Counted from the stretch's first letter, positions 17,506-33,534 are shown. The stretch is DNA of 64,000 bases from Peterkaempfera bronchialis (GCF_003258605.2 NZ_CP031264.1:4216001-4280000); one strand, 5' to 3'. A program made the numbers and translations. Notes: generated from the letters alone by a model not told the origin.

Positions 17506-17533
17506 ATTGTATCGGGATGGCAAAGGCGGGTCA
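17506..17533 (-). promoter_or_regulatory. Housekeeping-type promoter for the membrane protein gene
   Basis: On the minus strand, TGACCC (17533-17528) and TACAAT (17511-17506) are 16 bp apart. The -35 element overlaps the SARP stop codon. Confidence 0.55.
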
Positions 17534-19411
17534 GGGTTGTTCGCGGGCGAAGAGGTGGGTGAGGCGGGGGAGTTCGTAGAGGACGGCGTGGGCGGTGACC
17601 TCGCTGGAGGGGGAGGCGACGACGCATGCCTCGATCAGGGACTCCAGGGCCTGGCGGGTGCGGTGCAGGCCGAGGCCGAGGGCGGCGGTGGCCTCTTCGA
17701 GGGTGAAGAGCGGGGCGGGGAGTGAGCCGAGGATGCGCAGGATGTCGCGGGCGGGCTCGGGGAGGTCGCGCCAACATCGGGCCAGGCGGGGGCGGACGGC
17801 GGTGTCCCCGACGGAGAGTTCGTCGAGGGCGGTGAGCGGGTCGGCGAGCCGGGCGGCGTACTCGTCCAGCGGCAGGTGGCGCAGGACGGCGAGCTTGGTC
17901 GCGGCGACCCGTACGGCGAGCGGCAGCAGCCCGGCGGCGGAGACGATCCGTTCGGCGGCGGGCCGGTCCGCCGTGACCCGGCCGAACCCGATGATGCGGC
18001 CGAGCAGTTCGAGGGCTTCGGCGGGGGTGTACGGGCCGACCTCGACGCGGTGGGCCGACTCCAGCCCGGCCAGTCCGGTGCGGGCGGTGACCAGGACCTG
18101 GCCCGGGCCGGAGGCGGGCAGCAGCGGCCGTACGCTGGCCTCGTCCGGCGCGTCGTCCAGGAGCAGCAGCACCCGGCGCCCGGCCAGCCGCCCCCGCCAC
18201 TCGGCGGCGGCTTCGGCGGTCTCGGCGGTCTCGGCGGGGTCGTCGCCGAGCGGCGGCGCGGGCAGTCCGGCGGCGCGGTGGAGTTCGGCGAGTACCGCGC
18301 CGGTCGGCCGGGGGGAGCCGTCCGGGGTGCGCATCCGGACCAGCAGCCGGCCGTCCGGGAAGGCGTCCCGCAGCCGGTGCGCCACATGCAGCGCCAACGA
18401 GCTCTTGCCCGCGCCCACCGGGCCGGTCAGCGCCACCGGCTGCCCGCTGTCGCGGCCGAGCACCTTGAGCAGCCGGTGGACGTGCTCCTTGCGGCCGGTG
18501 AAGTCCGCCAGGTCGCGGGGGAGCAGGGGGCCCGCAGCGCCGGAGGGGCGGCGGCGGGCCGGTGCGGCGGCCGAGGGCGGGCCGGGCGGGTCGGTGAGCA
18601 GGGCGCGGTACCGGGCCTCCAGGGTGGGGCTCGGCGGCAGGCCCAGTTCCCGGGCCAGCAGTCTGCGGTACTCGTCGTAGACGGCGAACGCCTCGCTCTG
18701 CCGCCCGCAGCGGTGCAGCGCGGTCATCTGGGAGACCCGCAGCCGCTCCCGGAACGGGTGCTCACGGGTCAGCTCGCCGATCGTCTCGGCGACGGCGCCC
18801 GGGTCGCCCGCCTGGCCGGAGCCGCCCGCATGACCAGGCCCGCCCGCATGACCGGGGCCGTCAGGCCCGCGCGGGTCGAGCTCCGCCTCGGCCCAGTCCT
18901 CGTACACGGCCACCCGGAGCAGGGCCAGCCGCTCGGCCTCGGCCCGGATCGCCTCCGGTCCGGCCAGGTCGGCGAGGACCGGCCCGCGCCACAGGGCCAG
19001 CGCCTCGCGCAGCAGCCGGGCGGCGGCGGCGCCCTGGGCGGCCTGCCGCCCGGCCCGGGACAGCTGGTCGAAGCGGAGTGCGTCGAGTTCGCCGGGGCCG
19101 ACCCGCAGCAGGTAGCCGCCGTGCCCGTGGACCAGCCGGTCGCCGTGCCCGGCGGTGGAGAGCAGCTTGCGCAGCGCGCAGATGTACACCTGGAGGTTCT
19201 TCCGGGCGGTGCGCGGCGGACTGCCCTCCCAGAGGGCGTCGGCCAGCAGCTCCAGCGGGACGGTGCTGTTGGCGCGGCAGAGCAGCAGGCCCAGCACGGT
19301 GCGCTGCTTGTGCGGGCCGAGCGGCAGCGGTCGGCCGTCCAGGGCGGCGGTGAGCGGGCCCAGGATCCCGAAGTGGAGCCGGCCGGGCCGTTGCGGCTGG
19401 TCGTGTCCCAA
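17531..19411 (-). CDS. AfsR-like SARP transcriptional regulator with NB-ARC ATPase
   Basis: This 626-residue regulator has an OmpR-type winged helix (about residues 12-105; FGILGPLTAALDG, HKQRTVLGLLLCRA), a bacterial transcriptional activation domain (about 110-270) and an NB-ARC module with P-loop GPVGAGKS (about 330-337) and Walker B LLLLDDA. Unlike AfsR it lacks the TPR tail. SARPs activate antibiotic clusters by binding heptameric repeats near the -35 region. The TTG start follows GGGAGGAG. It faces away from the LuxR gene across a 400-bp gap and lies at the left edge of the candidate RiPP cluster, so it is the likely pathway activator, though this is inferred from position. Confidence 0.9.
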   Translation of the reverse strand: MGHDQPQRPGRLHFGILGPLTAALDGRPLPLGPHKQRTVLGLLLCRANSTVPLELLADALWEGSPPRTARKNLQVYICALRKLLSTAGHGDRLVHGHGGYLLRVGPGELDALRFDQLSRAGRQAAQGAAAARLLREALALWRGPVLADLAGPEAIRAEAERLALLRVAVYEDWAEAELDPRGPDGPGHAGGPGHAGGSGQAGDPGAVAETIGELTREHPFRERLRVSQMTALHRCGRQSEAFAVYDEYRRLLARELGLPPSPTLEARYRALLTDPPGPPSAAAPARRRPSGAAGPLLPRDLADFTGRKEHVHRLLKVLGRDSGQPVALTGPVGAGKSSLALHVAHRLRDAFPDGRLLVRMRTPDGSPRPTGAVLAELHRAAGLPAPPLGDDPAETAETAEAAAEWRGRLAGRRVLLLLDDAPDEASVRPLLPASGPGQVLVTARTGLAGLESAHRVEVGPYTPAEALELLGRIIGFGRVTADRPAAERIVSAAGLLPLAVRVAATKLAVLRHLPLDEYAARLADPLTALDELSVGDTAVRPRLARCWRDLPEPARDILRILGSLPAPLFTLEEATAALGLGLHRTRQALESLIEACVVASPSSEVTAHAVLYELPRLTHLFAREQP

Positions 19412-19813: not shown

Positions 19814-20967
19814 TTGGCGATCAGTCGCTTATCGGGAGTCCCGGTGGCCTCGGCCACCCTCGGAGCGGACGAGGTCCAGGTCTATGCCTGGGCGGTCGAG
19901 CGGGGCCGGCTGGTGGTCGAGGAGGCGGAGGCCGACCTGGGCATGCGGCCGGAGCGGCTGCGGGCCGCGGTCCATGTACTGGCGGGGCTGGAGCTGCTCC
20001 GGCCCGACCGGCCCGACCGCCCCGACAGTGCCGACGGCCCCGACCGGCCCGACGGCCCCGACAGACCCGACAGACCGGACCGGCCGAGGGAGGCCGAGGA
20101 GCCCGGGTCCACCGAGGAGCCCGGGTCCACCGGGGAGTGGCTGGTCGCCAGCCCGATGACCGCCAGCGCCGGAGCCGCCGTCGCCGAGGCGAAGCTGCGC
20201 CGCAGCCTGGCCGACCTGGACCGGCTGCGCGACTCGCTGGCCGCCCTGGGGACGCTCTACGCGGCAGCCGGGCGCAACGCCGAGGCGGCGGGCAGGCCGC
20301 TGGCGGAGGTGGAGTCGCTGGACACCGTGGTCGCCATGATCGAGGAGGCCAGCGAACGGGCGGCGACCGAGGTGATGACCTGTCAGCCCGGCGGCGGACG
20401 CCCCGCGCACCTGCTGGAGCAGGCCGTGGAGCGCGATCTGCGCACGGTGCGGCGCGGGGTGCGGATGCGGGTGCTGTACCAGCACACGGCGCGCGGCCAC
20501 GGCCCCACCCGCGCCTATGTGGACCGGATCACCTCGGTCGGGGCGGAGGTGCGCACCCTGGGCGAACTGGTCGGCCAGATGGTCGCCTTCGACCGCCGGG
20601 TGGTCTTTCTGCCGCTGCACCGCGACCCGGACGGCGCGGTGGTGCTGCGCGACCCTTCGGTGGTGGCCTTCCTCTGCCGGACGTTCGACCGGATGTGGGG
20701 CCTGGCGTCGCCGTTCGCCCCGGACCGCCGCGACGCCGTCGTCCTGGACGACCTCAAGCGGGCGATCCTGCGGCTGCTCGCCGAGGGGCTGCGGGACGAG
20801 ACCATCGCCCGCCGACTGGGCATGTCGCTGCGCACCTGCCGCAAGCACATCGCGGAGATGCTGGAGCAGTTGGGCGCGGAGAGCCGCTTCCAGGCGGGCC
20901 ATCTGGCGCACGCCGCCGGGCTGCTGCGGGTCGGCGGCGAGGGGTCCGGCCCTCCCCCCGGGGGTGA
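19814..20967 (+). CDS. LuxR-type regulator with a TTA (bldA) codon; true stop uncertain
   Basis: The N-terminal part resembles a TrmB/HTH-like domain (about residues 10-65). It is followed by a PDRPDRPD linker, a central domain with helical HLLEQAVERDLRTVRRGVRMR, and a C-terminal LuxR helix-turn-helix (LRLLAEGLRDETIARRLGMS, RTCRKHIAEML; about residues 318-372). The TTG start is set by AAGGAG nine bases upstream. Codon 6 is TTA (19829-19831), readable only by the bldA tRNA. The frame as given does not close after the domain: it runs antisense through the next two genes to 23629. A TGA at 20965 in another frame suggests an indel in the C6/G5 run at 20954-20964, so the end given is an estimate. 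Confidence 0.75.
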
Positions 20968-20971
20968 GGGC
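20949..20971. terminator. Hairpin between LuxR gene and MFS gene
   Basis: GCCCTC (20949-20954) and GAGGGC (20966-20971) flank a C5/G5 run between two convergent genes. It is probably a bidirectional terminator, and a likely spot for sequencing or replication slippage. Confidence 0.5.
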
Positions 20972-20986
20972 GGACGCCGCCCGCCG

Positions 20987-22315
20987 TCAGCGCCCCGCCT
21001 CGCCCACGGGGGTGCCCGCCGCCGCCGGGTCCTGGGCGGACCCCGCCGCGCCCTCCGGTTCCGCCGCCGTCCCCGGTTTGGTCTGCGGCTGGGCCTCGGA
21101 CGGCTGCGGCCGGACCGTGAGCAGCCCCCGGGTACGGAGCAGCGGCCCGGCCGAGACCAGGGTGATGACCAGGGCCAGGCCGCCCAGCAGCAGCCAGGTC
21201 CAGGAGACGCCGAGTGCCTGGAGCGCGGCGCCGGCCAGGACCGGGCCGGTCGCCGCCAACCCGGCCGTCACCATGCCGGACGCGGTGCTCACCCGCCCGA
21301 TCAGCTCCCGGGGGGCCAGGGTGAGCACCGCCCGGCCCACCACGATCCCGGCAGGCGGCGAGAGCAGCACCAGCACCACCAGCACCGGGCCCAGCACCCA
21401 CGGGCTGGACGTGGTGGCGAAGAGCGTCAGACCCGCCGCCCACACCGTGCCGACCAGCAGGAACAGCGGCCCCGGATCGAGCCGCCGGACGATCCACGGC
21501 GCCGCCGCCGAACCCAGCACCCCGCCCACCCCGGCGCAGGCCATCACCAGCCCGATACCGGACGGGCTGGTGCCGCCCAACCGCAGCGCCAGCACAAACG
21601 CCACCTCGGCGGAGGCCGTCACCAGGTTGAGCAGTCCGGCAAAGGCCAGCGCCCGCAGCAGCATCGGCTGCCGCCCCAGCCAGCGCAGCCCCGCGACCGG
21701 GCTGCGGTCCGCCGTGCCCGAGGCCGGAGCCGCCTCCGGCCGGGCGGTGATCCGCGCCACCAGCACCGCCGAGACCGCGTACGAGGCCGAGTCCACGACA
21801 AACGGCAGCACCCGGTCCACGGTGAAGAGCCAGCCGCCCACGAACGGCCCGATCAGCGACGCCGTCGCCGCAGCGGCCTGGCTGCGCCCCAGCGCCTCGG
21901 GCAGATGCTCCTCGGGCACCACGTCCCGGACGGCGATGGTGCTCGCCGGGGAGAAGAGCGCGGTGGCCACGCCCTCCACGGCGGCGACGATCAGCAGCTG
22001 CGGGTAGCCGAGCACGCCGATGGCGGCGGCGACCGGGATGGAGCCCACGCCGACCGCCCGCACCACATCGGTGGCGAACATCACCCGCCGCCGGTCCCAG
22101 CCGTCCACCAGGTGGCCGGCCGGCAGCCGGAAGATCAGCCGGGCGGCCATGGCGCAGGTGGCCACCGCCCCGGCCTCCGCCGGGCTGCCGCCCAGCGACA
22201 GGACCAGCAGCGGATAGGCGATGTACGAGACATAGGAGCCGAGGGTGGACAGCGTCTCGCTGGTCCAGTACCGCCGGAAGTCCGCGTTGCCCCGCAGCGC
22301 GCCGGATCTCGCCAT
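20987..22315 (-). CDS. MFS exporter
   Basis: This 442-residue transporter has about twelve hydrophobic segments. LVDGWDRRRVMFATD is the loop 2-3 motif of the EntS-like/MFS_3 family, whose members export siderophores and macrolides. A hydrophilic C-terminal tail follows the last helix. GGAGG lies six bases before the ATG. It follows the radical SAM gene by 42 bp on the same strand and likely belongs to the precursor-rSAM-exporter operon, exporting the mature product or giving self-protection. Confidence 0.88.
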   Translation of the reverse strand: MARSGALRGNADFRRYWTSETLSTLGSYVSYIAYPLLVLSLGGSPAEAGAVATCAMAARLIFRLPAGHLVDGWDRRRVMFATDVVRAVGVGSIPVAAAIGVLGYPQLLIVAAVEGVATALFSPASTIAVRDVVPEEHLPEALGRSQAAAATASLIGPFVGGWLFTVDRVLPFVVDSASYAVSAVLVARITARPEAAPASGTADRSPVAGLRWLGRQPMLLRALAFAGLLNLVTASAEVAFVLALRLGGTSPSGIGLVMACAGVGGVLGSAAAPWIVRRLDPGPLFLLVGTVWAAGLTLFATTSSPWVLGPVLVVLVLLSPPAGIVVGRAVLTLAPRELIGRVSTASGMVTAGLAATGPVLAGAALQALGVSWTWLLLGGLALVITLVSAGPLLRTRGLLTVRPQPSEAQPQTKPGTAAEPEGAAGSAQDPAAAGTPVGEAGR

Positions 22316-22357
22316 ACCGCACCTCCGTGGCCGGGTGGCCGCTCGGTGCCGGGCCGC

Positions 22358-23548
22358 TCAGAGGCGTCCGGCCGCGTTCAGTCGGTCCAGCAGCGCCGCG
22401 TCCACCTGGTCCTGGAAGGCGGTGAGCGCGGCGGCCTCCTCGCTCTGCCGGTACAGGTCGCCGCAGGAGACCCAGCGGCCCTCGGCCTGCTCGTCCGGCA
22501 GATAGCCGTCGTCGAGCGTGCCGACCTGCCACTCCGGCCGCCCGGCGGTGTCCCAGCAGCTGGAGAGGGTGCCGTCGGCGCTGATCACGGCGCCGTACCG
22601 GCCGTCCCGGAAGGAGCAGGACTGGCACGGCGTGTGGGCGCTCGGCCGGGGCACGCTGAAGCCCCGGTCCAGGGCGGCGGCGTACCAGCGGGTGAAGTCG
22701 GCGGCCAGGGTGCCGTTGTGCAGCAGGTCGTTGCGGTAGCCCACGCCCACGTCGCCGACCATCGCGAAGTAGAGGGAGCAGCGGGTCGGGTCCAGCCGCT
22801 CGGCCAGCCGGTCGACCAACTCGTCCATGCCGGGCCGGCTGCGGTGCGAGACATTGACCCGCAACTGCCAGCGGAGCGTGGTGGCCTCGGTGGCGCGGGC
22901 CAGGTTGGCGGTGATCCGGTCGAAGGTGCCGCCGCCGGAGCGCCGGACCCTGATCCGGTCGTGCTCCTCCCGGTCGCCGTCGAAGGTCACCTGGACCGAG
23001 CCGAGCCCGGCGGCGTTCAGCTCCTTGGCGATCAGCGGGGTGAGCAGGGTGGCGTTGGAGGTCATGGCGGCCCCCGCCAGGCCCAGGTCGGCGGCCCTGG
23101 CCAGCAGCTCCCGGGCGCCGCGCGGGTTCAGCAGCGGCTCGCCGCCGAAGAGCAGCAGCGAGAGGCGGTCAAGGTCGGCGTCGGCCATCCGGCGGCGGGT
23201 GAAGTCCAGCACCGCGCCGATGGTCTCGGAGGTCAGCCGGGCGTGCCTGATCCTCGGCGGGCGGCTGCCCCCGGCCGGGTCCTGCCCGGTGTTCTGGAAG
23301 CAGTAGTCGCAGCCGAGGTTGCAGTCGGTGCTGGTCAGCACGGTCAGGGCGTAGACGCGGTAGGGCGGCGCCGTGTACAGGCCCGCCTTGCGCAGATAGC
23401 GCTCGGCGGAGGGCCGCGGTACGCCCTCCGGTGTGACCTGCTCGGGGCGGAGCAGCGCGCAGCCGCCGCCGCCGAGGAACCACCATCCCCGGGCGGAGCG
23501 GATCAGCCGCGCGCCGGTCTCCGAGACGGCGGGCAGGGTGCTGTGCAT
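22358..23548 (-). CDS. Radical SAM/SPASM peptide-modifying enzyme
   Basis: This 396-residue enzyme has an N-terminal extension of about 65 residues, a radical SAM core with C76-x3-C80-x2-C83 (TDCNLGCDYCFQ) for the SAM-binding 4Fe-4S cluster, LLLFGGEPLLN as the GGE motif, and a SPASM-type C-terminus with clustered cysteines (TPCQSCSF, LSSCWD, VSCGD) for auxiliary clusters. This architecture is that of RiPP maturases making C-S, C-C or C-O links. GGGAGGAAGC sits directly before the ATG. It lies 73 bp downstream of the small peptide gene, which ends in a Trp-Cys-containing segment, and is the natural enzyme for that peptide. Confidence 0.9.
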   Translation of the reverse strand: MHSTLPAVSETGARLIRSARGWWFLGGGGCALLRPEQVTPEGVPRPSAERYLRKAGLYTAPPYRVYALTVLTSTDCNLGCDYCFQNTGQDPAGGSRPPRIRHARLTSETIGAVLDFTRRRMADADLDRLSLLLFGGEPLLNPRGARELLARAADLGLAGAAMTSNATLLTPLIAKELNAAGLGSVQVTFDGDREEHDRIRVRRSGGGTFDRITANLARATEATTLRWQLRVNVSHRSRPGMDELVDRLAERLDPTRCSLYFAMVGDVGVGYRNDLLHNGTLAADFTRWYAAALDRGFSVPRPSAHTPCQSCSFRDGRYGAVISADGTLSSCWDTAGRPEWQVGTLDDGYLPDEQAEGRWVSCGDLYRQSEEAAALTAFQDQVDAALLDRLNAAGRL

Positions 23549-23586
23549 GCTTCCTCCCAGGAGCGGGCGCGGCGGTTGACCGGGCC

Positions 23587-23614
23587 GCCGGGCCGACCCG
23601 GGGGTCGGCCCGGC
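23587..23614 (-). terminator. Hairpin between precursor peptide and radical SAM gene
   Basis: Perfect 12-bp inverted repeat (23587-23598 / 23603-23614) with a 4-base loop, 7 bases after the peptide stop codon. In RiPP operons such a hairpin often lets most transcripts end after the precursor, so peptide exceeds enzyme. Confidence 0.75.
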
Positions 23615-23621
23615 GGGTGGA

Positions 23622-23774
23622 TCAGTTGACCTTCTCCTGGTGGACGCCGCACCAGCCGGCCACGTCGGAGATGCCCTGCTCGTCGTCGACGTCGGCGGTG
23701 TGCGCGACGACCTCGGGAGCGTCCTCGCTGCCGGTCTCGATCTCTTCGGGGGTCGGCTCGGTGTTCTCGGCCAT
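23622..23774 (-). CDS. Candidate RiPP precursor peptide
   Basis: This 50-residue peptide has an acidic leader-like N-terminal two thirds rich in E, D, T and P, followed by the C-terminal segment ISDVAGWCGVHQEKVN (residues 35-50) with the only Trp (W41) and Cys (C42). It starts at ATG 23774 with AGGAG seven bases upstream and ends with TGA at 23622. Small size, acidic leader, Gly and Cys-Trp core, a strong ribosome site, a hairpin after the stop and a SPASM radical SAM gene next in line all fit a precursor. CGVH recalls the CGVY end of mycofactocin precursors, but the tail continues and no mycofactocin genes are present. I know no described family with this core. There is no direct proof that it is modified. 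Confidence 0.8.
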   Translation of the reverse strand: MAENTEPTPEEIETGSEDAPEVVAHTADVDDEQGISDVAGWCGVHQEKVN

Positions 23775-24172
23775 GGCGGACTCCTGTTCTGGGAGTGGCA
23801 GATGCTGGGAGTGGCGGACGGAGACGGGCTGTCCGCCCCGGACCGGGCGCCGACGGGGTACGGCCGACCGCTCGGACGGAGGCGGGCCGACGGTCGTCCG
23901 CCGGCCCTCCAGAAGCTAGGCGGCCCGGGTTCGGCAGCGGTTGGACGCCGGTATGCGGGCGGTGAACGCGCAGGCGGCGACGGGTGCACCGGGTCGGCCG
24001 CCGCCCCCCGCCGCCGCTCGGCCGACCCCCGGCAACCCCGCTGAGCAGCGGCCATACCGTCCCCGAACCGGCACCCAACCGGCAGCCAACCGCGCCGCGT
24101 CACCGTGGTCCCCGTACGGCGGCGGCCCGGCGGCCCGGAGCCGCGCCGACCAGCCGGAGGGAGGGTGTGCCG
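23775..24172. promoter_or_regulatory. Divergent promoter region at the centre of the RiPP-like cluster
   Basis: This 398-bp gap lies between the precursor (minus) and the second radical SAM gene (plus). On the minus strand TAGCTT (23919-23914) is a fair -10 for the precursor operon, giving a leader of about 130 bases. On the plus strand TAGGCG (23917-23922) overlaps it. No further small ORF with a ribosome site was found. Both arms are probably controlled from here. Confidence 0.45.
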
Positions 24173-25276
24173 ATGCGGCTGGCCGACCTGCTCGCGCTGC
24201 GCCCGGTGCCCGGCGCCGGCCTGCTCCTCACCCTGACCCGGCGCTGCCCGCTGCGCTGTGCGCACTGCTCGACCGCCTCCACCATGGCGGCGGAGCAGGT
24301 GGACGGGGCCGCGCTGCTGCGGTTCGTCCGCTCCTTCACCGCCGCCGACCGGCCCGAGGTGGTGCTGCTGACCGGCGGCGAGCCGCTGCTGCGGCCGGAG
24401 CTGGCCGCCGACCTCGCCGCCGCCGCCCGGACGGCCGGGACCCGCAGCGCCCTGCTCAGCGGCCTCTTCTTCGCCCGGGAGGACCGCATCCCGGCCCGGA
24501 TCCTGCGTGCGGTCACCGCCGTCGACCACTTCTCGGCCAGCCTGGACGCCTTCCATGAGCGGGAGGTGCCCAGGGCGGCGGCCTTCCGCGCGGTGCACCA
24601 GGTGCTGGACGCGGGCGTACCGGCCAGCTTCCACCTCACCGGGACGGGCGCCGACGACCCGTACCTGGCGGACGCCACCGCCGCCGTCCGCCGCGAGTTC
24701 GGCGACCGGGCGCCGATGCTGGTCAACGAGGTGCGCGCGGTGGGCCGGGCCGCAGGCTGGGCCGCGACCGCCCGTACGGGGGCGGCCGACCCGGGCGCGG
24801 TGCAGCCCTGCGCCATGGCCGCCTGGCCGGTGGTCGCCTTCGACGGCGCCGTCGTCGCCTGCTGCAACCAGGACGTGGTGGACCGCCGCCCCGCCCCCGC
24901 CCATCTGCTGCTGGGCCGGATCGCCGACGACCCTTGGCCGGTGGTCCGCGCCCGCGCCGCCGGCTCACCGCTGCTGCGGATGGTCCGGGCCGTCGGGCCC
25001 GACCACCTGTACGCCCGCTACGGCGGCGACCCGGCACCCAACGCCGCCGAGGACTGCTGCACGGGCTGCCGCAGGCTCTCCGAGCGGCCCGCCGTCGCGG
25101 ACGCCGCCCGCCGGGCCGGGGCCGGACCGGTCGGCGAGCTGCTGGACCGCGAGGCCGCCCGACTCCAGTACCAGGCCGGGCCGGTGGCGCTGGCCCGCCG
25201 CTGGGGCTGCGCCGGGTACGCCGACCTGGTCGCGCCGGGGCACCCACTGCCCGAGACCGCCGGGGCGACGCGGTGA
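24173..25276 (+). CDS. Second radical SAM enzyme of the cluster
   Basis: This 367-residue enzyme has C25-x3-C29-x2-C32 (RRCPLRCAHCS) close to the N-terminus, VVLLTGGEPLLRPEL, and a C-terminal region with extra cysteines (QPCAMAAWPV, VVACCNQDV, AEDCCTGCRRL) that could hold one or more auxiliary clusters as in SPASM/twitch enzymes. ATG 24173 lies eight bases after GGAGGGAGG; an in-frame GTG six bases earlier is too close. The stop overlaps the next gene's GTG. It is not a close relative of the first radical SAM enzyme, so the two probably catalyse different steps or act on different peptides. Confidence 0.87.
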   Translation: MRLADLLALRPVPGAGLLLTLTRRCPLRCAHCSTASTMAAEQVDGAALLRFVRSFTAADRPEVVLLTGGEPLLRPELAADLAAAARTAGTRSALLSGLFFAREDRIPARILRAVTAVDHFSASLDAFHEREVPRAAAFRAVHQVLDAGVPASFHLTGTGADDPYLADATAAVRREFGDRAPMLVNEVRAVGRAAGWAATARTGAADPGAVQPCAMAAWPVVAFDGAVVACCNQDVVDRRPAPAHLLLGRIADDPWPVVRARAAGSPLLRMVRAVGPDHLYARYGGDPAPNAAEDCCTGCRRLSERPAVADAARRAGAGPVGELLDREAARLQYQAGPVALARRWGCAGYADLVAPGHPLPETAGATR

Positions 25277-25989
25277 CCGCTCCCGCCCCCGCCGCCGCAT
25301 CCGGCGCGGCGCGGCGGCTGGCGGTCAAGCTGGAACCGGCCTCCGCCGCGCTGCACGCCGCGCTCTCCGCGCTCTGGCGGCTGCCCGACCCGGCCGACCG
25401 CTACCGGGCCTATCTGCGGACCATGCACACGGTGATCCGGGCCTCCGTACCGCTGATGGAGACCGCCGCCCGGCGGTGCGCCGACCTGGGCCCGGCCGAC
25501 CCGGTCGCCGGGCCGCTCGGCCGCTACCTCACCGCACACATCGAGGAGGAACGCCACCACGACGCCTGGCTGCTGGCCGACCTCGCCCTCGCCGGCGGGG
25601 ACCCCGCCGAGCCGCTGCGGCAGCTGCCGCCGCCGGAGGCCGCCCGGCTGGTCGGCGCGCAGTTCTACTGGGTGCTGCACCACCACCCGGTCTGCCTGCT
25701 GGGCTACATCGCCGTCCTGGAGGGCCACGCCCCCGCACCCTGGCTGGCCGACCGGCTGGCGCGGACCACCGGCCTGCCCGACGCGGCCTTCCGCACGGTA
25801 CGGGAGCACGCGGTGCTGGACGCCGGCCACGGCGCCGACCTGGACGCGCTGCTGGACCGGCTGCCGCTGACCCCGGAGCAGGAGAGCTGGGTCGCGGTCA
25901 GCGCGCTGCACACCGTCGCCGCCGCCGTGGAACTGCTCCGGCGCCCGGACCCGACCGTCCCCCACGCGCCGCCAGGAGGAGCCCCATGA
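25273..25989 (+). CDS. Haem-oxygenase-like diiron (iron-containing redox) enzyme
   Basis: The 238-residue, largely helical protein has the HDO-type pattern HIEEERHHDAW (E92/E93, H95/H96) and later conserved His/Asp helices (REHAVLDAGHGADLD). Proteins of this fold (PqqC/TenA-like, haem_oxygenase_2) use a diiron or cofactorless site for oxidations such as N-oxygenation, decarboxylation, desaturation or C-C cleavage. The GTG start and the stop overlap both neighbours by 4 bp, so expression is tightly coupled to the radical SAM enzyme and the acidic peptide. An oxidative tailoring role in peptide maturation is inferred from this setting. The exact metal ligands need a structural alignment. Confidence 0.78.
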   Translation: MTAPAPAAASGAARRLAVKLEPASAALHAALSALWRLPDPADRYRAYLRTMHTVIRASVPLMETAARRCADLGPADPVAGPLGRYLTAHIEEERHHDAWLLADLALAGGDPAEPLRQLPPPEAARLVGAQFYWVLHHHPVCLLGYIAVLEGHAPAPWLADRLARTTGLPDAAFRTVREHAVLDAGHGADLDALLDRLPLTPEQESWVAVSALHTVAAAVELLRRPDPTVPHAPPGGAP

Positions 25990-26237
25990 CCGACGGCCAC
26001 GACGACCAGGCAGCCGTCATAGACGACATAGACGACATAGACGACGTGGACGACGTACTGGAGGTGCTGGAGGCCGCGGGCATCGTGGTCGACGGCTTCA
26101 CCGAGGAGCAGCGGCAGGTCTTCCGCTCGCTCTCCGCCGAGGAGTTGGCGCTGCTGCTGGAGATCAAGGGACGGCTTGACGCGGTCGAGCCGGAGGTGCA
26201 GGCGCACGGCGTGGTGGCGGGCGGCGCCCTGTTCTGA
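25986..26237 (+). CDS. Acidic 83-residue peptide, possible second precursor or carrier
   Basis: This is a small protein with a strongly acidic N-terminus made of IDDIDDIDDVDD (residues 12-23, encoded by 9-bp DNA repeats), a predicted helical middle (FTEEQRQVFRSLSAEELALL, then LEIKGRLDAVEPEVQAHG) and a hydrophobic end VVAGGALF. AGGAGGAG precedes the ATG, which overlaps the stop of the diiron enzyme gene. The leader-like helix followed by a short small-residue tail ending in Phe fits a RiPP precursor whose core is the last 8-12 residues. Alternatively it could be a binding or scaffold protein. I do not recognise the family with certainty. Confidence 0.7.
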   Translation: MTDGHDDQAAVIDDIDDIDDVDDVLEVLEAAGIVVDGFTEEQRQVFRSLSAEELALLLEIKGRLDAVEPEVQAHGVVAGGALF

Positions 26238-26303
26238 ACGGCCCAGCTCCGAACGGACCTGTTCGTGAACGGCCGCCCGTCCGCCGAGAGGGAGGACTCC
26301 ACG

Positions 26304-29300
26304 ATGCACTGCTCCTCGTGCCGGACGCCGCTGGTCGCGGGCGCCCGGTTCTGCTCCGGCTGCGGGACGCCCTGCGCCCCGGCCGCTCCGGCCGACCCGG
26401 CCACCGAGGAGCGCAAGGTGGTCACCGTCGTCTTCTGCGACCTGGTGGGCTCCACCGCGATCTCCGGCCGGCTCGACCCCGAGGCACTGCGCGCCGTCAC
26501 CCTGCGCTACTTCGAGGTGATGAGACGTCAGATCGAGGCGCACGGCGGCACGGTGGAGAAGTTCATCGGCGACGCCGTGATGGCGGTCTTCGGCGTCCCG
26601 GTGATGCACGAGGACGACGCCCGGCGGGCGCTGGCCGCCGCCCTGGACATGCTCACCGCCCTGGACCGCCTCAACACGGAACTCGCCGCCGCGCCCGGCG
26701 TCCGGCTGGACGTCAGGATCGGGGTCAACACCGGTGAGGTGGTGGCCGGTTCCGATGCCTCCGCCCGGCAGGCGCTGGTCTCCGGCGAGGTGGTCAATGT
26801 CGCCGCCCGGCTGGAGCAGAACGCCGCCGCCGGGCAGATCCTGATCGGCCCGGACACCCTGCGGGCCGCCGGCGCCGCCGCCGTCGCCGAGGACGCCGGA
26901 CCGCTGCGGCTCAAGGGCAAGGCGGACCCGGTCCGCGCCCACCGGCTGCTGGCCGTCCGCAACGACGACCCGGAGCTGCTGCGCCGCTTCGACATCCCGT
27001 TCGTCGGCCGCGAGCAGGAGCTGGCGCAGCTGCACCTGGTCCTGGAGAAGACCACCGGGACGCTCGGCTGCCACCTGGCGACCCTGTACGGCGAGGCCGG
27101 CATCGGCAAGACCCGCCTGGTCCGCGAATGGCTCGACCGGCTCGACCGGACCGGTACCGCCGTGGCCCACGGCACCGGCCGCTGCCGCCCGTACGGGGAC
27201 GGCGGCACACTCAGCCCGCTCGCCGACGCACTCCGCCACCTGCTGGAGGCCGCCCCTGAGCACCCCGCCGCGCTTCAGCCGGACGCCGACCCCGGCGAAC
27301 TCGCCGACCAGGCCGAGGCGTTGGCCCTGCTCCGCAGCGGCCTGCTGCTCGACGGCACCCCCAACCCGTCGGTGGAGGACACCTGCGCGGCGGCGGCCTG
27401 CCTGCTGGGCGGCCTCGCCCGGCGGCGGCCCCTGCTGCTGGTACTGGACGACTGCCACTGGGCCGACGCCCTGCTGCTGGGCGTCCTGGACCGGCTCTGC
27501 GAGGACCTGGACCGGTCACCGGTACTGCTGGTCTGCACCGCCCGCCCCGAACTGCTGGACCGCCACCCCGGCTGGGGCAGCGGACGGCTCAAGGCGGTCT
27601 CGCTGATGCTGCCCGGCCTCTCCGCCGAGGAGTCCGCCCGGCTGGCTGCCGGGCTGGAGGAGGTCGGCGCCCACCTGGCCGACCCGGAGTCGGCCCGGGT
27701 GCTGGAACGCGCCGAGGGCAACCCGCTGCACCTGGAGCAGCTGCTGGCGATGCTGGCCGACGGCGGCCCACCGGAGGAACTGCCGCCCACCGTGCACGCC
27801 CTGCTGGGGTCGCGGATCGACGCCCTCGGCCCGGCCGAGCGCACCGTACTCGACCTCGCCGCCGTGGTGGGCCGGGAGTTCGACCTCGACCGGCTGGCGG
27901 CCCTGGCCCGCTCCGGCCCCGAGGGGCGGCCCGGCGGCTCCCTGCCGCCGGACGGCACCGAGGGAGACACCGTGCGCGCCGCCCTGCGGCGGCTCATCCG
28001 CAGGCGGCTGGTCGAACCGGCCCGCCGCGCGCCCGGCGGCGGCCCGGCCTTCCGGTTCAGCAGCGGCCTGGTCCATGAGGTCGCCTACCAGGGCATGGCC
28101 AAGCGGGTACGCGCCGAGCGGCACGAAAGGGCCGCCGCACTGCCCGGCGGCGCCACCGACGGCACGGTGGGCCTCCACCTGGAGCAGGCCCACCGCTACC
28201 GCACCGAACTCGGCCTGCTGGACGCCCGTACCGAACGGCTGCGCCGCCACGCCGCCGACCGGCTGGCCGCCGCCGGAGCCCAGGCACTCGCCCGCGCCGA
28301 CCTCCGCTGGGCCGACGACCTGCTGCGCCGGGCGGTGGCCGTCAGCCGCCCCGGCGAACCATGCTGGGCACCGGCCGCCCGCAGGCTGGCCGAGGCGGCG
28401 TTGGCCCGAGGGCGTACCGAGGAGGGCGCGGCGCTGCTGCGGCAGGTGGTCTCCGCTGCCACCGCCTCCGGCGACCCCGTCAGCGCCGCCCACGCCCGCC
28501 TCACCCTCGCCGCCACCCAACCCGCCGCCGACCCGGAGGTCGCCGACCCGACGGCTGGGCCGGACGTGGAGCCTGCTGTCGCCGGGGCGGCCGCCGCTGG
28601 GCCGGCTGCCGGGTCGGGCGTGGCTGGGCCGGTCGCCGATCCGGTCGCTGAGTTCGGGACTGCCGCTGGACCGGTGGCGGGGCCGGGCGTTGCCGGTTCG
28701 GTGGCCGAAATCGGGGTTGCCGCTGGGCTGGTCGCCGGGCCGGGGGTGGATGCCGAGGCCGGGGTGGTGGGTGGGTCGCCGACGGCCGTTGCGCGGGCTG
28801 TGCTGCCCGTCTTCCAGGCCGCCGGGGACCTGCTGGGGCTGGCCCGGGCCGAGATCCGGATCGCCCAGGACGAGCAGCGCCGGGGCCTGCACACCGAGGC
28901 CGACCGGCGGCTCACCCGGGCTCTGGACCACGCGGTACGGGCCGACGCCGAGCCCGAGCGGGCGCTCGCCCTCGGCGCGGTCGGCGTCTCGCTCTGGCTC
29001 GGACCGGAGCCCGTACCGTCCGCCGTCGCCCGCTGCCGCGCCCTGCTGGCCGAGCACGGCGCCGGCCGCCGCACCGTCGGAGTGACCCTCAACTGCCCGC
29101 TGGCCGTGCTGCTGGCCCTGGACGACCGGCCCGAGGAGGCCCGGGCCTGCCTCGCCGCCGCAGCCCGGCTCGCCCGGGAACTGGGCTACGCCGAGGCGGC
29201 CGTCTTCCTGCCGGTCTTCGCCGCCGCCGTGGAGGTCCCGGCAGGCCGCCCGGAACGGGCCGAGGAACTGCTGCTGGAGGCCGAGCGGGCGGGCCGGGAA

Positions 29301-29741
29301 CTCGGCGGCAGCCTGCCCGCCGCCGTCTCCCGGGAACTGGCCCGGCTGCTGCTGGCCCGAGGCGAGTGGCGGCGCGCGCTGTGCCGGGTCGAACCCGACG
29401 ACCGGGGCCTGCCGCTCTCCGAGGCGGCCGACCGCGACGGCCTGCTCGCCCGGATCGCCGCACTGCGCGGCGACCACGCCGAGGCGGAACGGCTGGCCGA
29501 GCGGGCCTGCGACCGGGCGGGCCGCACCGATTCGCCGGTGGCCCGGGCGGTGGCCGCGCTCGACCGGGCGCACACCCTGCTGCTGACCGGCAGCCCCGCC
29601 CGCGCCGCCGACGCCGCCGCCGAGGCGGGCCTCGGCTTCACGGAGAAGGGGCACCGGCCCGGGGCGCGGTGGGCGGCGCGGCTCTCCGCCCGCGCCGCCG
29701 CCACCGGACCGGACGCGCCGTACGGGGAGGCCGCCCGATGA
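26304..29741 (+). CDS. Nucleotidyl cyclase-STAND ATPase fusion regulator
   Basis: This 1145-residue protein begins with a zinc ribbon (C3, C6, C17, C20). A class III adenylate/guanylate cyclase domain follows (about 38-200) with metal-binding Asp residues in FCDLVGST and KFIGDAVMAVFG. A STAND ATPase module has P-loop GEAGIGKT (about 263-270) and Walker B LLLVLDDCHWAD. The C-terminus is helical and TPR-like. Around 28537-28790 it holds a Val/Ala/Gly/Pro low-complexity insert with VAGPGVAG repeats. No DNA-binding domain is seen. It presumably senses a ligand through the helical repeats and signals by conformational change or cyclic nucleotide. It sits inside the operon, and the stop overlaps the protease ATG. 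ATG 26304 follows GGGAGGA. Confidence 0.87.
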   Translation: MHCSSCRTPLVAGARFCSGCGTPCAPAAPADPATEERKVVTVVFCDLVGSTAISGRLDPEALRAVTLRYFEVMRRQIEAHGGTVEKFIGDAVMAVFGVPVMHEDDARRALAAALDMLTALDRLNTELAAAPGVRLDVRIGVNTGEVVAGSDASARQALVSGEVVNVAARLEQNAAAGQILIGPDTLRAAGAAAVAEDAGPLRLKGKADPVRAHRLLAVRNDDPELLRRFDIPFVGREQELAQLHLVLEKTTGTLGCHLATLYGEAGIGKTRLVREWLDRLDRTGTAVAHGTGRCRPYGDGGTLSPLADALRHLLEAAPEHPAALQPDADPGELADQAEALALLRSGLLLDGTPNPSVEDTCAAAACLLGGLARRRPLLLVLDDCHWADALLLGVLDRLCEDLDRSPVLLVCTARPELLDRHPGWGSGRLKAVSLMLPGLSAEESARLAAGLEEVGAHLADPESARVLERAEGNPLHLEQLLAMLADGGPPEELPPTVHALLGSRIDALGPAERTVLDLAAVVGREFDLDRLAALARSGPEGRPGGSLPPDGTEGDTVRAALRRLIRRRLVEPARRAPGGGPAFRFSSGLVHEVAYQGMAKRVRAERHERAAALPGGATDGTVGLHLEQAHRYRTELGLLDARTERLRRHAADRLAAAGAQALARADLRWADDLLRRAVAVSRPGEPCWAPAARRLAEAALARGRTEEGAALLRQVVSAATASGDPVSAAHARLTLAATQPAADPEVADPTAGPDVEPAVAGAAAAGPAAGSGVAGPVADPVAEFGTAAGPVAGPGVAGSVAEIGVAAGLVAGPGVDAEAGVVGGSPTAVARAVLPVFQAAGDLLGLARAEIRIAQDEQRRGLHTEADRRLTRALDHAVRADAEPERALALGAVGVSLWLGPEPVPSAVARCRALLAEHGAGRRTVGVTLNCPLAVLLALDDRPEEARACLAAAARLARELGYAEAAVFLPVFAAAVEVPAGRPERAEELLLEAERAGRELGGSLPAAVSRELARLLLARGEWRRALCRVEPDDRGLPLSEAADRDGLLARIAALRGDHAEAERLAERACDRAGRTDSPVARAVAALDRAHTLLLTGSPARAADAAAEAGLGFTEKGHRPGARWAARLSARAAATGPDAPYGEAAR

Positions 29742-30577
29742 CCACCCAGCCCGCTCCCCGCCCCCCGCTCACCTGGAGCCTGCGCGGCCGGGGCCCGCAG
29801 GACATCCCCGTGGACGCCGACGGCGAGCGGATCACCGCCGGCTGGTCCTGGGGCGGCTCCACCGGCCATGGCGTACGGGTCTGCGTGGTGGACAGCGGGG
29901 TGGAACGCGACCACCCGCTGGTCGGCCCGGTGCAGGGCTCCTACGCCGTGGTGCAGGGCGACGACGGGCTCACCGTCGAGGAGACCTCCACCGGGGACAC
30001 CTGCGGACACGGCACCGCCTGCGCGGGCATCATCCGCCGCACCGCGCCCGACTGCGAGCTGTACAGCGTCCGGGTCCTCGGCGAGCGGTTCGCCGGCACC
30101 GGCGACGCCCTGCTCACCGGGCTCCGCTGGGCCGTCCGGCAGCGCTTCGACGTGGTGAACATGAGCCTGTCCACCACCCGCCCGCACTTCGCCGAGGCGC
30201 TGCGGGTGCTCGCCGACGACGCCTACTTCGGCCGCACCGCGATCGTGGCCTCCGCGCACAACACCCAGGTGGAGAGCTACCCCTGGCGGTTCTCCTCGGT
30301 GATCTCGGTCGGCAGCCACCAGGAGGACGACCCCGACCTGTACCTGTACAACCCCCGGCCACCGGTGGAGTTCTTCGCCCCCGGCCAGAACGTCACCGTG
30401 CCCTGGCTGGGCGGCGCGACCATCCGCACCACCGGCAACAGCTTCGCCACCCCGTATGTCGCCGGGCTCTGCGCCCGCATCCTGGCCAAGCACCCGGCGA
30501 TGACGACCTTCCAGCTGAAGAACGCGCTCTACCTATCCGCGGCCAATGTCCGGACCGGCAGCAGAGGTGCCCAATGA
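29738..30577 (+). CDS. Cytoplasmic subtilisin-like (S8) protease, likely leader peptidase
   Basis: This 279-residue serine protease has the full catalytic set: D52 in VVDSGVERDHP, H91 in CGHGTACAG, oxyanion N175 in SAHNTQ, and S235 in GNSFATPYVAG. It has neither signal peptide nor propeptide, so it should act inside the cell and be active as made. In RiPP clusters such S8 enzymes remove leaders (as LanP does). It overlaps the upstream cyclase gene (ATGA) and the downstream GAF gene by 4 bp. Its natural substrates would be the two small peptides of this cluster; that is inference. Confidence 0.9.
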   Translation: MTTQPAPRPPLTWSLRGRGPQDIPVDADGERITAGWSWGGSTGHGVRVCVVDSGVERDHPLVGPVQGSYAVVQGDDGLTVEETSTGDTCGHGTACAGIIRRTAPDCELYSVRVLGERFAGTGDALLTGLRWAVRQRFDVVNMSLSTTRPHFAEALRVLADDAYFGRTAIVASAHNTQVESYPWRFSSVISVGSHQEDDPDLYLYNPRPPVEFFAPGQNVTVPWLGGATIRTTGNSFATPYVAGLCARILAKHPAMTTFQLKNALYLSAANVRTGSRGAQ

Positions 30578-31143
30578 CCGAGAGCAGAGACCCCGTCGCG
30601 CGGGAACTCCTCCAGTCGATCGTCGGGGTGGCACAGGCCATCTTCGGCGCTCAGGCCAGCTCCATCTTCCTGCTCGACGAGCGGGCCGACGAGCTGGTCT
30701 TCGAGGCCGTCTCCGGCCGGGGCGAGGAGTTCCTGGTCGGCATGCGCTTCCCGGCCGACCGGGGGATCGCCGGCTGGGTGGCGACCTCCGGCGAGCCGAT
30801 GGTGGTGGACGACCTCGCGCACGACCCGTCCTTCGCCCGCGACCTCGCCGAGTCCACCCGCTATGTCCCCGACGCGCTGATGGCCGCGCCGCTCATCCAC
30901 GGCACCCGCATCCTCGGGGTGCTGGAGGTGCTGGACCCGGTGCAGCAGTCCCGGTCCAGCCTGGGCGAACTCGACCTGCTGGCGCTCTTCGCCCGGCAGG
31001 CCGCCGCCGCGCTCCGCATCGTGCTGGAACGCCGCGCCGCCGACCTGCCGCCCGTCGACCGGCCGGACCTGGACGCCGGGCAGCGGGCCACCGGGCTGCG
31101 GCTGGTCGAGGAGCTGAAGGAGCTGCTGCGCCATGCCGGCTGA
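30574..31143 (+). CDS. GAF-domain sensory protein
   Basis: This 189-residue protein consists of one GAF domain (about residues 8-155). Hallmarks include SSIFLLDERADELVFEA, the central GIAGWVATSGEPMVV, and a C-terminal strand GVLEVL. GAF domains bind cyclic nucleotides, haem, flavin or other small ligands. No output domain is attached; about 35 C-terminal residues form an amphipathic helix that could contact a partner. The gene is coupled to the protease gene and overlaps the P450 start by 11 bp. With a cyclase in the same operon, cyclic nucleotide binding is an attractive but untested idea. Confidence 0.85.
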   Translation: MTESRDPVARELLQSIVGVAQAIFGAQASSIFLLDERADELVFEAVSGRGEEFLVGMRFPADRGIAGWVATSGEPMVVDDLAHDPSFARDLAESTRYVPDALMAAPLIHGTRILGVLEVLDPVQQSRSSLGELDLLALFARQAAAALRIVLERRAADLPPVDRPDLDAGQRATGLRLVEELKELLRHAG

Positions 31144-32347
31144 CGACCGCCGCCCCGCCCCCTCACCGCTCGGCCGGGCGTTCGTCCAGCACCCCCACCC
31201 GGTCCTCGCCGAGCTGCGGGAGGGCTGCCCGGTGGCCAGGGTGGACGACCCCCGGGGTCGGCCGGTCTGGGTCGTCACCCGCGCCGAGGACGTCCGGGCC
31301 GGGCTGCTCGACCCCCGGCTGTCGCTCCAGCACCCGCCGCCCGCGCCCGGCGCCCGCCCGTACCGCGCGCTGGAGCTGAGCCTGGTCGACTACGACCCGC
31401 CGCACCACACCCGCATCCGCAGACTGGCCGCACCCGCCTTCGCCCCGCAGCGGGTGGAGCGCTACCGGCAGGCCGCCGAGACCACCGCCGCCGCGCTGCT
31501 GGCGCCGCTGCCCGCCGACCGGCCCGCCGACCTGATGAGCGCCTTCGCCCGCCCCTTCTCCTTCCGCGTCCTCTGCGAGGCGTTCGCGACCCCCGAGGCG
31601 GCCCGCGCCGACCTCCTCGGCTGGATGACCGCCCTCTTCGACCGCCGAGGCCGCACCCCCGCCGACATCCAGGCCGCCACCGACGGCATCGAACGGCACG
31701 TCAGGGATGAGATCGCGGCCCGCCGCCGCGCCCCCGGCAGCGACCTGCTCTCCGCCATCGCCACCGCCTGGCAGCCGGACGGCGACGTCACCGAGGACGA
31801 ACTGGTCTCGCTCTGCGCCATGGTGCTGCTCGCCGGATTCGACTCCACCGCGCAGATGATCGGCCTCTGCGTACGGGCCCTGCTCACCCACCCTGACCTG
31901 TACGCCCGGCTCCGCGCCGACCCCGCTCTGGTCCCCGCCGCCGTGGACGAGCTGCTGCGCTGGGACACCCCCGCGCCGTTCAGCACCCGCCGCCGGGCCC
32001 TGGCCGACATCACCCTCGGCGACACCGTCATCCCGGCCGGCAGCGGCGTACTGCTCGCCATGGCCGCCGCCAACCGCGACCCCCGCCACCACCCCGACCC
32101 GGACACCCTGGACCTCGACCGGCCGGGCGCCGCCCGCCACCTGGCCTTCGGACTCGGGCCGCACTACTGCCTCGGCTCCGCCCTGGCCCGGCTGGAACTC
32201 TGCACCGCCCTCACCGCGCTGCTGCGCCACCGCCCCGCCGCCCGGCTCGCCGTCCCCGCCGCAGAGCTCTCCTGGCGCGGCGGCTGCCAGCACCGCGTGC
32301 TGGCCGCACTGCCCGTCCTGCTCGGTACAGGGGTGGATCCCCGGTGA
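31133..32347 (+). CDS. Cytochrome P450 of the RiPP-like cluster
   Basis: This 404-residue bacterial class I P450 has the I-helix LLAGFDSTA (residues 232-240; T239 in the oxygen-activation position), ExxR as E273-L-L-R276, and the haem loop AFGLGPHYCLGSA with axial C346. It needs ferredoxin and a reductase, which are not encoded here. P450s in peptide clusters hydroxylate residues or cross-link aromatic side chains (biarylitides, cittilins), and the Trp or His of the precursor core are conceivable targets. The start overlaps the GAF gene and the stop overlaps the next GTG. Confidence 0.9.
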   Translation: MPADDRRPAPSPLGRAFVQHPHPVLAELREGCPVARVDDPRGRPVWVVTRAEDVRAGLLDPRLSLQHPPPAPGARPYRALELSLVDYDPPHHTRIRRLAAPAFAPQRVERYRQAAETTAAALLAPLPADRPADLMSAFARPFSFRVLCEAFATPEAARADLLGWMTALFDRRGRTPADIQAATDGIERHVRDEIAARRRAPGSDLLSAIATAWQPDGDVTEDELVSLCAMVLLAGFDSTAQMIGLCVRALLTHPDLYARLRADPALVPAAVDELLRWDTPAPFSTRRRALADITLGDTVIPAGSGVLLAMAAANRDPRHHPDPDTLDLDRPGAARHLAFGLGPHYCLGSALARLELCTALTALLRHRPAARLAVPAAELSWRGGCQHRVLAALPVLLGTGVDPR

Positions 32348-33534
32348 ACGTGCTGCTCTGCCCGCTGAGCGACCCCGGATTCCGCTACCCCGCCCTCGCC
32401 GTCGGCCTGGAACTGCGGCGGCGCGGCCACACCGTACGGGTGCTCGCCCCCGGCGGCGCCGCCGGACCCCTGCCGCCCGGCCTGGACCCGGCCGCGACCG
32501 CCGGACCCGAGGACGCGACGGCCTTCCGGGTCGGCAACTGGTTCCGGTACGGCGCCGCCCAGTACCGCGCCGTACGCGAAGCCGCCCGGCGGACCCGCGC
32601 CGACGCCCTGGTCACCTCCGTGCTCTGCCACGGCGCCCTGCTGGCCGCCGAGACCCTGGACCTGCCGGTCGCCGTCCTCGGCCTGGCCGCCCACCTCTGG
32701 CCGTACGCGGCCGGCGGCCAGGGCGAGCCCGAACGGCCCGCGCTCCGCGCCTGGCGGCTGCACGAGACCCTCGGCCACTACGCCCGCGCCCGGGAGGACG
32801 CCGGACTCCCGCCCCGCCGCGACCGCGCCCCGGAACGCCCGCTGACCGGCGACGCCCTGCTGCTGCGCGGCCACCCGGCGTTCGAGTACCCCGGCGCGGA
32901 GCTGCCGGAACGCATCCACCGGGTCGGCCCCTGCTGGTGGGAACCGGCCCCCGACCCCGCCGACCTCGCCACCCTCGCGGACCTCGACGCCCGCATCGCC
33001 CGGTGCGGCAAACCCCTGGTCTATGTCCACCATGGGCGCAGCTTCGGCGGCAGCAGCCTCTGGCCCTGGCTGAACGCGGCCTTCACCGGCGGCCCGTACC
33101 AGGCCGTCGTCGAGACCGGCCGCTCCGGCCCGGCCCGACCCGCCCCCGGCGCCGACCTGCTGCCGGTACGCCACCCCTGGATGACCCCCCTGATCACCCG
33201 GGCCACCGCCGTCGTCGCCAGCGGTACCACCGCCCCCGTCCTGGCCGCCCTGCTCACCGCGCGCCCGCTGCTGCTCCACCCCGCCGGCGGCGAACAGCCC
33301 CTGCTCACCGAGGCCTGCCTACGGGCCGGAGTCGCCCACCGCGCCCCGGCCGACCCCGCCGCGGCCCCGACCGCCCTGGACGCGGCCCGCACCGACCCCG
33401 CCCTACGCGCCCGCACCACCGCCGTCGGCGACTGGCTCCGCCGCTCCCCCGGCCCACCCGCCGCCGCCACCCTGATCGAATCCCTCTCCCACCCGACCCC
33501 CGCCGTCAGCCCCGCCGGCACCCTCACCGGGTGA
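32344..33534 (+). CDS. UGT/MGT-like glycosyltransferase (GT-B fold)
   Basis: This 396-residue protein has the two-domain GT-B layout. The N-terminal Rossmann half starts VNVLLCPLSDPGFRYPALAV with the charged helix LELRRRGHTVRVLAP. The C-terminal donor domain contains AVVASGTTAPVLAALLTARP and LLHPAGGEQPLLTEACL, equivalent to the MGT/PSPG donor motif but with the usual HGG replaced by a serine-glycine stretch. It would attach a sugar to the cluster product; the loss of the HGG histidine makes donor choice uncertain. GTG start overlaps the P450 stop. This is the last gene of the operon and is followed by a convergent gene after 55 bp. Confidence 0.8.
   Translation: MNVLLCPLSDPGFRYPALAVGLELRRRGHTVRVLAPGGAAGPLPPGLDPAATAGPEDATAFRVGNWFRYGAAQYRAVREAARRTRADALVTSVLCHGALLAAETLDLPVAVLGLAAHLWPYAAGGQGEPERPALRAWRLHETLGHYARAREDAGLPPRRDRAPERPLTGDALLLRGHPAFEYPGAELPERIHRVGPCWWEPAPDPADLATLADLDARIARCGKPLVYVHHGRSFGGSSLWPWLNAAFTGGPYQAVVETGRSGPARPAPGADLLPVRHPWMTPLITRATAVVASGTTAPVLAALLTARPLLLHPAGGEQPLLTEACLRAGVAHRAPADPAAAPTALDAARTDPALRARTTAVGDWLRRSPGPPAAATLIESLSHPTPAVSPAGTLTG

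Follow-up and report, generated by a model that had tools for sequence, protein, structure and literature searches.

Does a bacterial gene cluster that carries two small peptide genes and several kinds of modifying enzyme build one heavily modified peptide, or two? This question is raised by positions 19,814 to 33,534 of a 64,000-nucleotide stretch (the whole of which we call the window) from the soil bacterium Peterkaempfera bronchialis (GCF_003258605.2, NZ_CP031264.1:4216001-4280000). The locus had been predicted to encode a new class of ribosomally synthesized and post-translationally modified peptide (RiPP), in which a single peptide would meet two radical S-adenosylmethionine (SAM) enzymes, a heme-oxygenase-like diiron (HDO) enzyme, a cytochrome P450 and a glycosyltransferase. 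We consider it probable that it is instead a modular RiPP locus making two peptides, here named pepA and pepB, both matured by one protease, a cytoplasmic subtilase of family S8 (S8 in the following).

Three linked modules rather than one pathway

Genes in the window were called with a hexamer gene finder, for which the window and related loci served as training set, and their products were identified with the Pfam and NCBIfam hidden Markov model (HMM) libraries. Every gene of the original prediction was found in this way, and all are coding (Table 1). Homologues of rSAM2, the radical SAM enzyme encoded beside HDO and pepB, were present in 57/299 family genomes, and with S8 as the query instead the count was 84/299. 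The 80 named rSAM2 loci came from Streptomyces, Kitasatospora, Streptacidiphilus, Wenjunlia, Actinacidiphila and metagenome-assembled genomes assigned to Catenulispora and Amycolatopsis. Outside the family, a phylum-wide scan yielded few carriers of NF045560, the NCBIfam aroma-sacti domain of pepB. Since more than 100 actinomycete loci show the arrangement, it is not a product of chance.

We annotated 140 stretches, 124 of them distinct, and took core counts from the 100 distinct loci that reach 19 kb or more; beyond the window, genes are as called by our own gene finder, and some contigs are cut. rSAM2, HDO, pepB, a cyclase/STAND protein, S8 and a GAF-domain protein were all called in 83/100 of these loci. 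One more locus (L070; L numbers are our locus labels) can be added, where the gene finder missed pepB and a frame search found one (...DVEGHGIEGGALLW). The same kind of search found no aroma-sacti peptide in L069, where an NHLP-type peptide ending VEAHGATPAYY is present instead. Where the stretch was intact, no homologous locus was without some kind of peptide gene, and the assignment of the window locus to RiPP biosynthesis, with both small peptides precursor-like, holds.

The genes, modules and motif association described here are read directly from the sequences, and on this basis three linked modules describe the locus better than one pathway. The platform, near-invariant among the relatives, is composed of cyclase/STAND, S8 and GAF. 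The second module is rSAM2-HDO-pepB, and the third is a swappable wing, whose enzyme beside the constant core can be LanKC (a class III lanthipeptide synthetase), a SPASM-type radical SAM enzyme or a LanB-type enzyme. Three LanKC proteins of core loci that were tested scored above the NCBIfam cut-off, and in clearly matching wings the SPASM enzyme was 44–70% identical to that of the window. Genes for P450, glycosyltransferase and prolyl oligopeptidase are variably present within the SPASM wing type. LanKC is present in other core loci, and S. griseus carries a LanKC-type locus (L198), but no full LanKC was found in the window's own genome; the window wing is therefore of the SPASM type, and a class III lanthipeptide cluster was rejected as a description of this locus.

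rSAM2, HDO and pepB were jointly missing in 11 of the 100 loci, with cyclase-S8-GAF and wing retained. Loci L219–L223 and L226–L231 carry cyclase, S8, GAF, wing and peptides with the motif described below, without rSAM2, HDO and pepB. In the S8 tree the L219/L222 and L226/L228 groups stand at separate places among rSAM2-bearing relatives, suggesting more than one joint loss of the three genes. Since the modules are separable, we assign the enzymes by module: the SPASM enzyme, P450 and glycosyltransferase most likely work on pepA, and rSAM2 and HDO on pepB.

A (D/E)-V-x-A-H motif is common to otherwise unrelated precursors

pepA and pepB share a (D/E)-V-x-A-H motif, which also occurs in otherwise unrelated precursors. 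The pattern [VI]x[AG]H was found in 74/83 core-linked class III precursors vs 0/32 precursors of LanKC loci lying apart from the core, with a residue-shuffling expectation of ~2/83. LxLQ was present in both sets. These control loci led us to reject the motif as a general class III leader feature. It was retained with LanKC, SPASM and LanB wings, and its persistence in loci without rSAM2 and HDO excludes it as a signature of that pair. A tagged wing peptide was not seen, within the stretch read, in 16/100 long loci. An additional, tag-free class III lanthipeptide cluster with LALQ-type precursors adjoins the core in L040, L041, L042, L045 and L140.

S8 is the likely reader of the motif

Tagged peptides persist without rSAM2, HDO and pepB, so the tag follows the platform, and as S8 is the platform's only protease, it is the likely tag reader. 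The S8 triad (D52/H91/S235) was invariant in 41/41. The site profile has E/D at P5, V at P4, a free P3, A/G at P2 and H or, in a minority, Q at P1, which is consistent with subtilisin subsites. It lies in the same register as the motif (D/E-5)(L/V-4)X2(Q-1) of ElxP, a cytoplasmic S8 leader protease that the minority sites also match in their P1 Gln (PMC10885120). The residue beside the S1 pocket was Glu in 116/120 loci (P1 His) and L/L/A/P in four P1-Gln loci, as read from an alignment with subtilisin BPN' that has a gap near the pocket, leaving one position of doubt. As the likely reader, S8 would cut after His, in line with the earlier proposal of a cytoplasmic leader protease.

The pepA wing combines a SPASM enzyme with single-Cys cores

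The pepA of the window has one Cys (...EVVAH followed by TADVDDEQGISDVAGWCGVHQEKVN). Its core WCGVHQE recurs in L077 and L078, where the pepA homologues contain three cores. Multicore precursors, with 2–13 cores, carry one motif per core at a spacing of 23–29 aa, and 90/98 of the segments have exactly one Cys. The pepA wing thus has both ranthi-/sactipeptide-type features tested, a SPASM-type radical SAM enzyme and a Cys in the core. The best NCBIfam relatives of the SPASM enzyme, all sub-cutoff, were TIGR04463, CefB and the geopeptide maturase. Thioether formation, anticipated at the outset beside radical cross-linking for the locus as a whole, is plausible for pepA. In L047, a 314-aa precursor gene lies between the SPASM enzyme and rSAM2 and encodes ~13 tandem cores of the form EVVAHSGEDTP(G/S)WCI..., with one Cys each.

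rSAM2 and HDO accompany a near-fixed, Cys-free peptide tail

Against NF045560 (cut-off 30 bits), pepB scored 74.6 bits, and pepB with its relatives 70–83 bits. Whatever the database name suggests, pepB cannot form a thioether, because 98/102 distinct sequences have no Cys; this lack led us to reject pepB as a sactipeptide. Its StsA equivalog score was 34.3 vs a cut-off of 75 bits. The tail is near-fixed as (G/S/A)-(E/D)-(I/V)-A-G-G-A-L-F in most loci. Where rSAM2 is present the C-terminus was Phe or Trp in 106/106 tails, whereas the five pepB homologues without rSAM2 end in Leu or Cys (0/5 aromatic). Aroma-sacti peptides ending ...VVC, ...VLC, ...TVC or ...DLKLL were found in L236, L237 and L238; in these a VxGQ-type sequence replaces EVxAH, and a divergent radical SAM gene lies alongside with no HDO.

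rSAM2 has a CX3CX2C motif and, in addition to it, the invariant C213/C230/C296/C299 and the near-invariant C231. Its closest solved relative is EpeE (profile E 9e-10; fold E 4e-11, TM 0.57–0.66), whose hydrogen-donor Cys223 (PMC8326336) aligns with C231 in a register fixed by the D210A mutant entry. Loci L064–L067, L069–L072 and L074 have another radical SAM gene after rSAM2, and its product carries a CC motif in loci whose rSAM2 lost the EpeE-like donor Cys. The HDO ligands E92/E93, H96, E150, H179, D183 and H186 (3-His/3-carboxylate) were conserved in 38–39/40, and the AlphaFold model (pLDDT 92) matches the HDO/heme-oxygenase-like folds of CADD, UndA and TenA-like proteins. By ligands and modelled fold, HDO is a heme-oxygenase-like diiron protein with a complete ligand set.

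Proposed maturation of the two peptides

We infer reactions, their order, the cut position, export, regulation and products as follows. The SPASM enzyme would modify pepA, most likely by forming a thioether from the single Cys, and P450 and glycosyltransferase would perhaps act on it afterwards. On the Cys-free pepB tail GVVAGGALF, rSAM2 would abstract a C-alpha hydrogen, with epimerization as a first guess, and HDO would carry out an O2-dependent oxidation, probably on or close to the aromatic residue at the C-terminus. pepA and pepB would both be cut by S8 after the His that ends (D/E)-V-x-A-H, and the release of the pepB tail would come after the rSAM2/HDO chemistry. The MFS protein would export the wing product. 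Most likely, the cyclase/STAND and GAF proteins, with the SARP and LuxR regulators, would sense or time the process.

Alternative readings

Several observations weigh against a two-peptide locus served by S8. The Fisher test for the motif association gave 1e-20 on loci related by descent, so that such P-values overstate independence. The motif precedes LxLQ in 59/74 class III precursors; a cut at that point would not remove all of the usual leader, and a second trimming step would be required. The P1/S1 covariation comes from four loci, which may go back to one or two origins. In some divergent rSAM2 proteins Gly or Thr stands in place of C231, so that the epimerase reading is not general. Finally, some intact loci have pepB and no wing enzyme in the stretch read, and a wing need not be required for pepB to function. 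The position relative to LxLQ, odd for a final cut, would fit a VxAH motif to which a modifying enzyme docks, or which it modifies, while S8 cuts elsewhere or has another substrate. We regard this as decidedly unlikely, as VxAH persists with three different types of wing enzyme and without rSAM2/HDO, and its profile matches both the S8 subsites and the ElxP motif.

The role of pepB is the point at which another reading competes most directly: pepB could be an accessory protein or internal signal, modified by rSAM2/HDO to activate the cyclase/GAF regulators or to help the wing maturases. Its tail is near-invariant across hosts with wholly different wing products, unlike a diversifying antibiotic, it shares an operon with the putative sensors, and its module can be lost while the wing stays. 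pepB nevertheless resembles the wing precursors in its EVxAH site and short tail, and in some lineages pepB is present twice, the two copies differing in their tails (L064–L067, L074); on balance we find this reading unlikely, though it deserves consideration. The resemblance of cyclase-STAND, protease and GAF to sensor-effector modules, and a caspase/EACC1-type gene adjoining one relative (L072), would suit a stress or conflict module with S8 as its regulated protease; in that case the peptides would trigger the module or be its targets, and would not be natural products. That these genes are found time and again with RiPP synthetases, exporters and multicore precursors makes this improbable. 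Hardly any credence is left for the single pathway of the original prediction, in which one peptide receives all modifications. The genes are indeed tightly clustered, and the predicted right-arm overlaps are real, with 6/7 junctions overlapping by 4 or 11 bp and the sole gap between pepB and the cyclase. Among relatives, however, the modules are separable and assort independently, and on these grounds we rejected one pathway on one peptide.

Relation to known systems

The pepB family resembles the aroma-sacti peptides of the StsA sactipeptide system in its domain score and in the radical SAM enzyme nearby, but it falls below the equivalog cut-off, has no Cys for a thioether, and is joined here by HDO and the protease platform. 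The locus does not look like that of a canonical epipeptide. rSAM2 has EpeE/YydG as its closest solved relative with the donor Cys aligned, but shows ~15% identity, a YydG NCBIfam score of 35 vs a cut-off of 300 bits, an extra C-terminal Cys pair and an HDO partner. QhpD/QhpE likewise pair a SPASM radical SAM enzyme with a cytoplasmic subtilase on a small protein, and QhpE is the best NCBIfam match of S8; the score is 111 vs a cut-off of 165 bits, however, no amine dehydrogenase genes are present here, and the substrates differ. Mycofactocin is similar in its short precursor tail with an aliphatic-aromatic end, its radical SAM enzyme, its dedicated peptidase and a glycosyltransferase in the locus. 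It differs in that rSAM2 had no mycofactocin-family match among the matches listed, HDO is present here, pepB ends in Phe/Trp rather than Tyr, and the wing glycosyltransferase lies outside the conserved core. A ribosomal peptide modified by both an EpeE-like radical SAM enzyme and a heme-oxygenase-like diiron enzyme is, to our knowledge, not described. A literature search for the aroma-sacti domain name, the peptide strings, and HDO with radical SAM and RiPP found no description, subscription journals being mostly outside its coverage.

S8 of the window has no signal peptide, as reported for ElxP of epilancin 15X, and shares with it an acidic-Val-x-x-P1 recognition; set beside AmyP of a class III lanthipeptide by reported motif, (T/S/A)EVE resembles EVEAH (PMC10885120). 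Unlike these proteases, the window-type S8 has P1 His and appears to serve several RiPP classes. Actinomycete class III lanthipeptide clusters usually have no leader protease of their own (PMC7268733). In its workings the locus resembles a RiPP locus that has a cytoplasmic leader protease of the ElxP kind; the new element appears to be one platform for several RiPP classes plus a constant second peptide. In its broadest form, which we put forward tentatively and with some doubt, the platform would serve these classes through a portable EVxAH tag, each locus co-making a near-universal small peptide by means of an EpeE-like radical SAM enzyme and HDO, as a conserved Streptomycetaceae signal or cofactor. 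If so, leader cleavage would be a shared platform and not part of each RiPP class, with lanthipeptide, radical SAM and LanB peptides plugged into one protease via one short tag. Core peptides could then be predicted by rule, even in arrays of up to 13 cores. Actinomycete class III lanthipeptides would gain a ready protease, and the conserved peptide a directly testable enzyme pair.

Coordinates, regulators and neighbouring genes

Table 1. Features of the locus, with positions counted from the first nucleotide of the window
Feature	Position	Strand	Evidence
SARP/AfsR-type regulator, BTAD + NB-ARC	17531..19411	-	Pfam PF03704, PF00931
LuxR-HTH regulator	19814..~20915	+	homology to regulators of other core loci, HMM
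MFS exporter (wing)	20987..22315	-	PF07690; recurs beside wing enzymes
SPASM-type radical SAM maturase (wing)	22358..23548	-	Pfam/NCBIfam
pepA, wing precursor, 50 aa	23622..23774	-	coding score, AGGAG ribosome site, 3-core homologues in L077/L078
EVVAH motif in pepA, proposed S8 site	23700..23714	-	motif enrichment, subsite profile
rSAM2, EpeE-like radical SAM	24173..25276	+	Cys motifs, profile and fold match
HDO-type diiron protein	25273..25989	+	PF14518, conserved ligands, fold
pepB, Cys-free, 83 aa, with aroma-sacti domain and tail GVVAGGALF	25986..26237	+	NF045560, alignment, tail profile
EVQAH motif in pepB, proposed S8 site	26193..26207	+	alignment, tail and subsite profiles
pepB core GVVAGGALF, proposed rSAM2/HDO substrate	26208..26234	+	tail near-fixed with rSAM2/HDO, differs without them
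Class III nucleotidyl cyclase + AAA_16 (STAND-like) + TPR (platform)	26304..29741	+	Pfam; kept in nearly all complete loci
Cytoplasmic S8 subtilase (platform)	29738..30577	+	Pfam/NCBIfam, invariant triad
GAF-domain protein (platform)	30574..31143	+	PF01590, conservation
Cytochrome P450 (wing; in part of SPASM loci only)	31133..32347	+	HMM, loci maps
GT-B glycosyltransferase (wing; in part of SPASM loci only)	32344..33534	+	PDB sequence matches, loci maps

The cyclase/AAA/TPR gene has an alternative start at 26265, and the GT-B protein is weak in Pfam and CalG2/OleD-like among PDB sequences. In the loci maps, SARP homologues recur adjoining the core in other loci. The left boundary given originally, 19814, proved to be the 5' end of a conserved LuxR-type helix-turn-helix (HTH) regulator, which that description had left out; it shares 46–61% identity with the regulators found next to other core loci. 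Where the homology ends its frame has no stop, and it stays open antisense across the MFS and SPASM genes (19814-23629), possibly through a frameshift or lost stop near 20915. Directly past the glycosyltransferase lies a minus-strand gene for a DUF1349 protein (33590-34219), which is not among the conserved core genes. The downstream protein at 34513-35463 has WHH nuclease-like and SUKH (SMI1/KNR4) immunity-type domains and is possibly part of a polymorphic toxin system.

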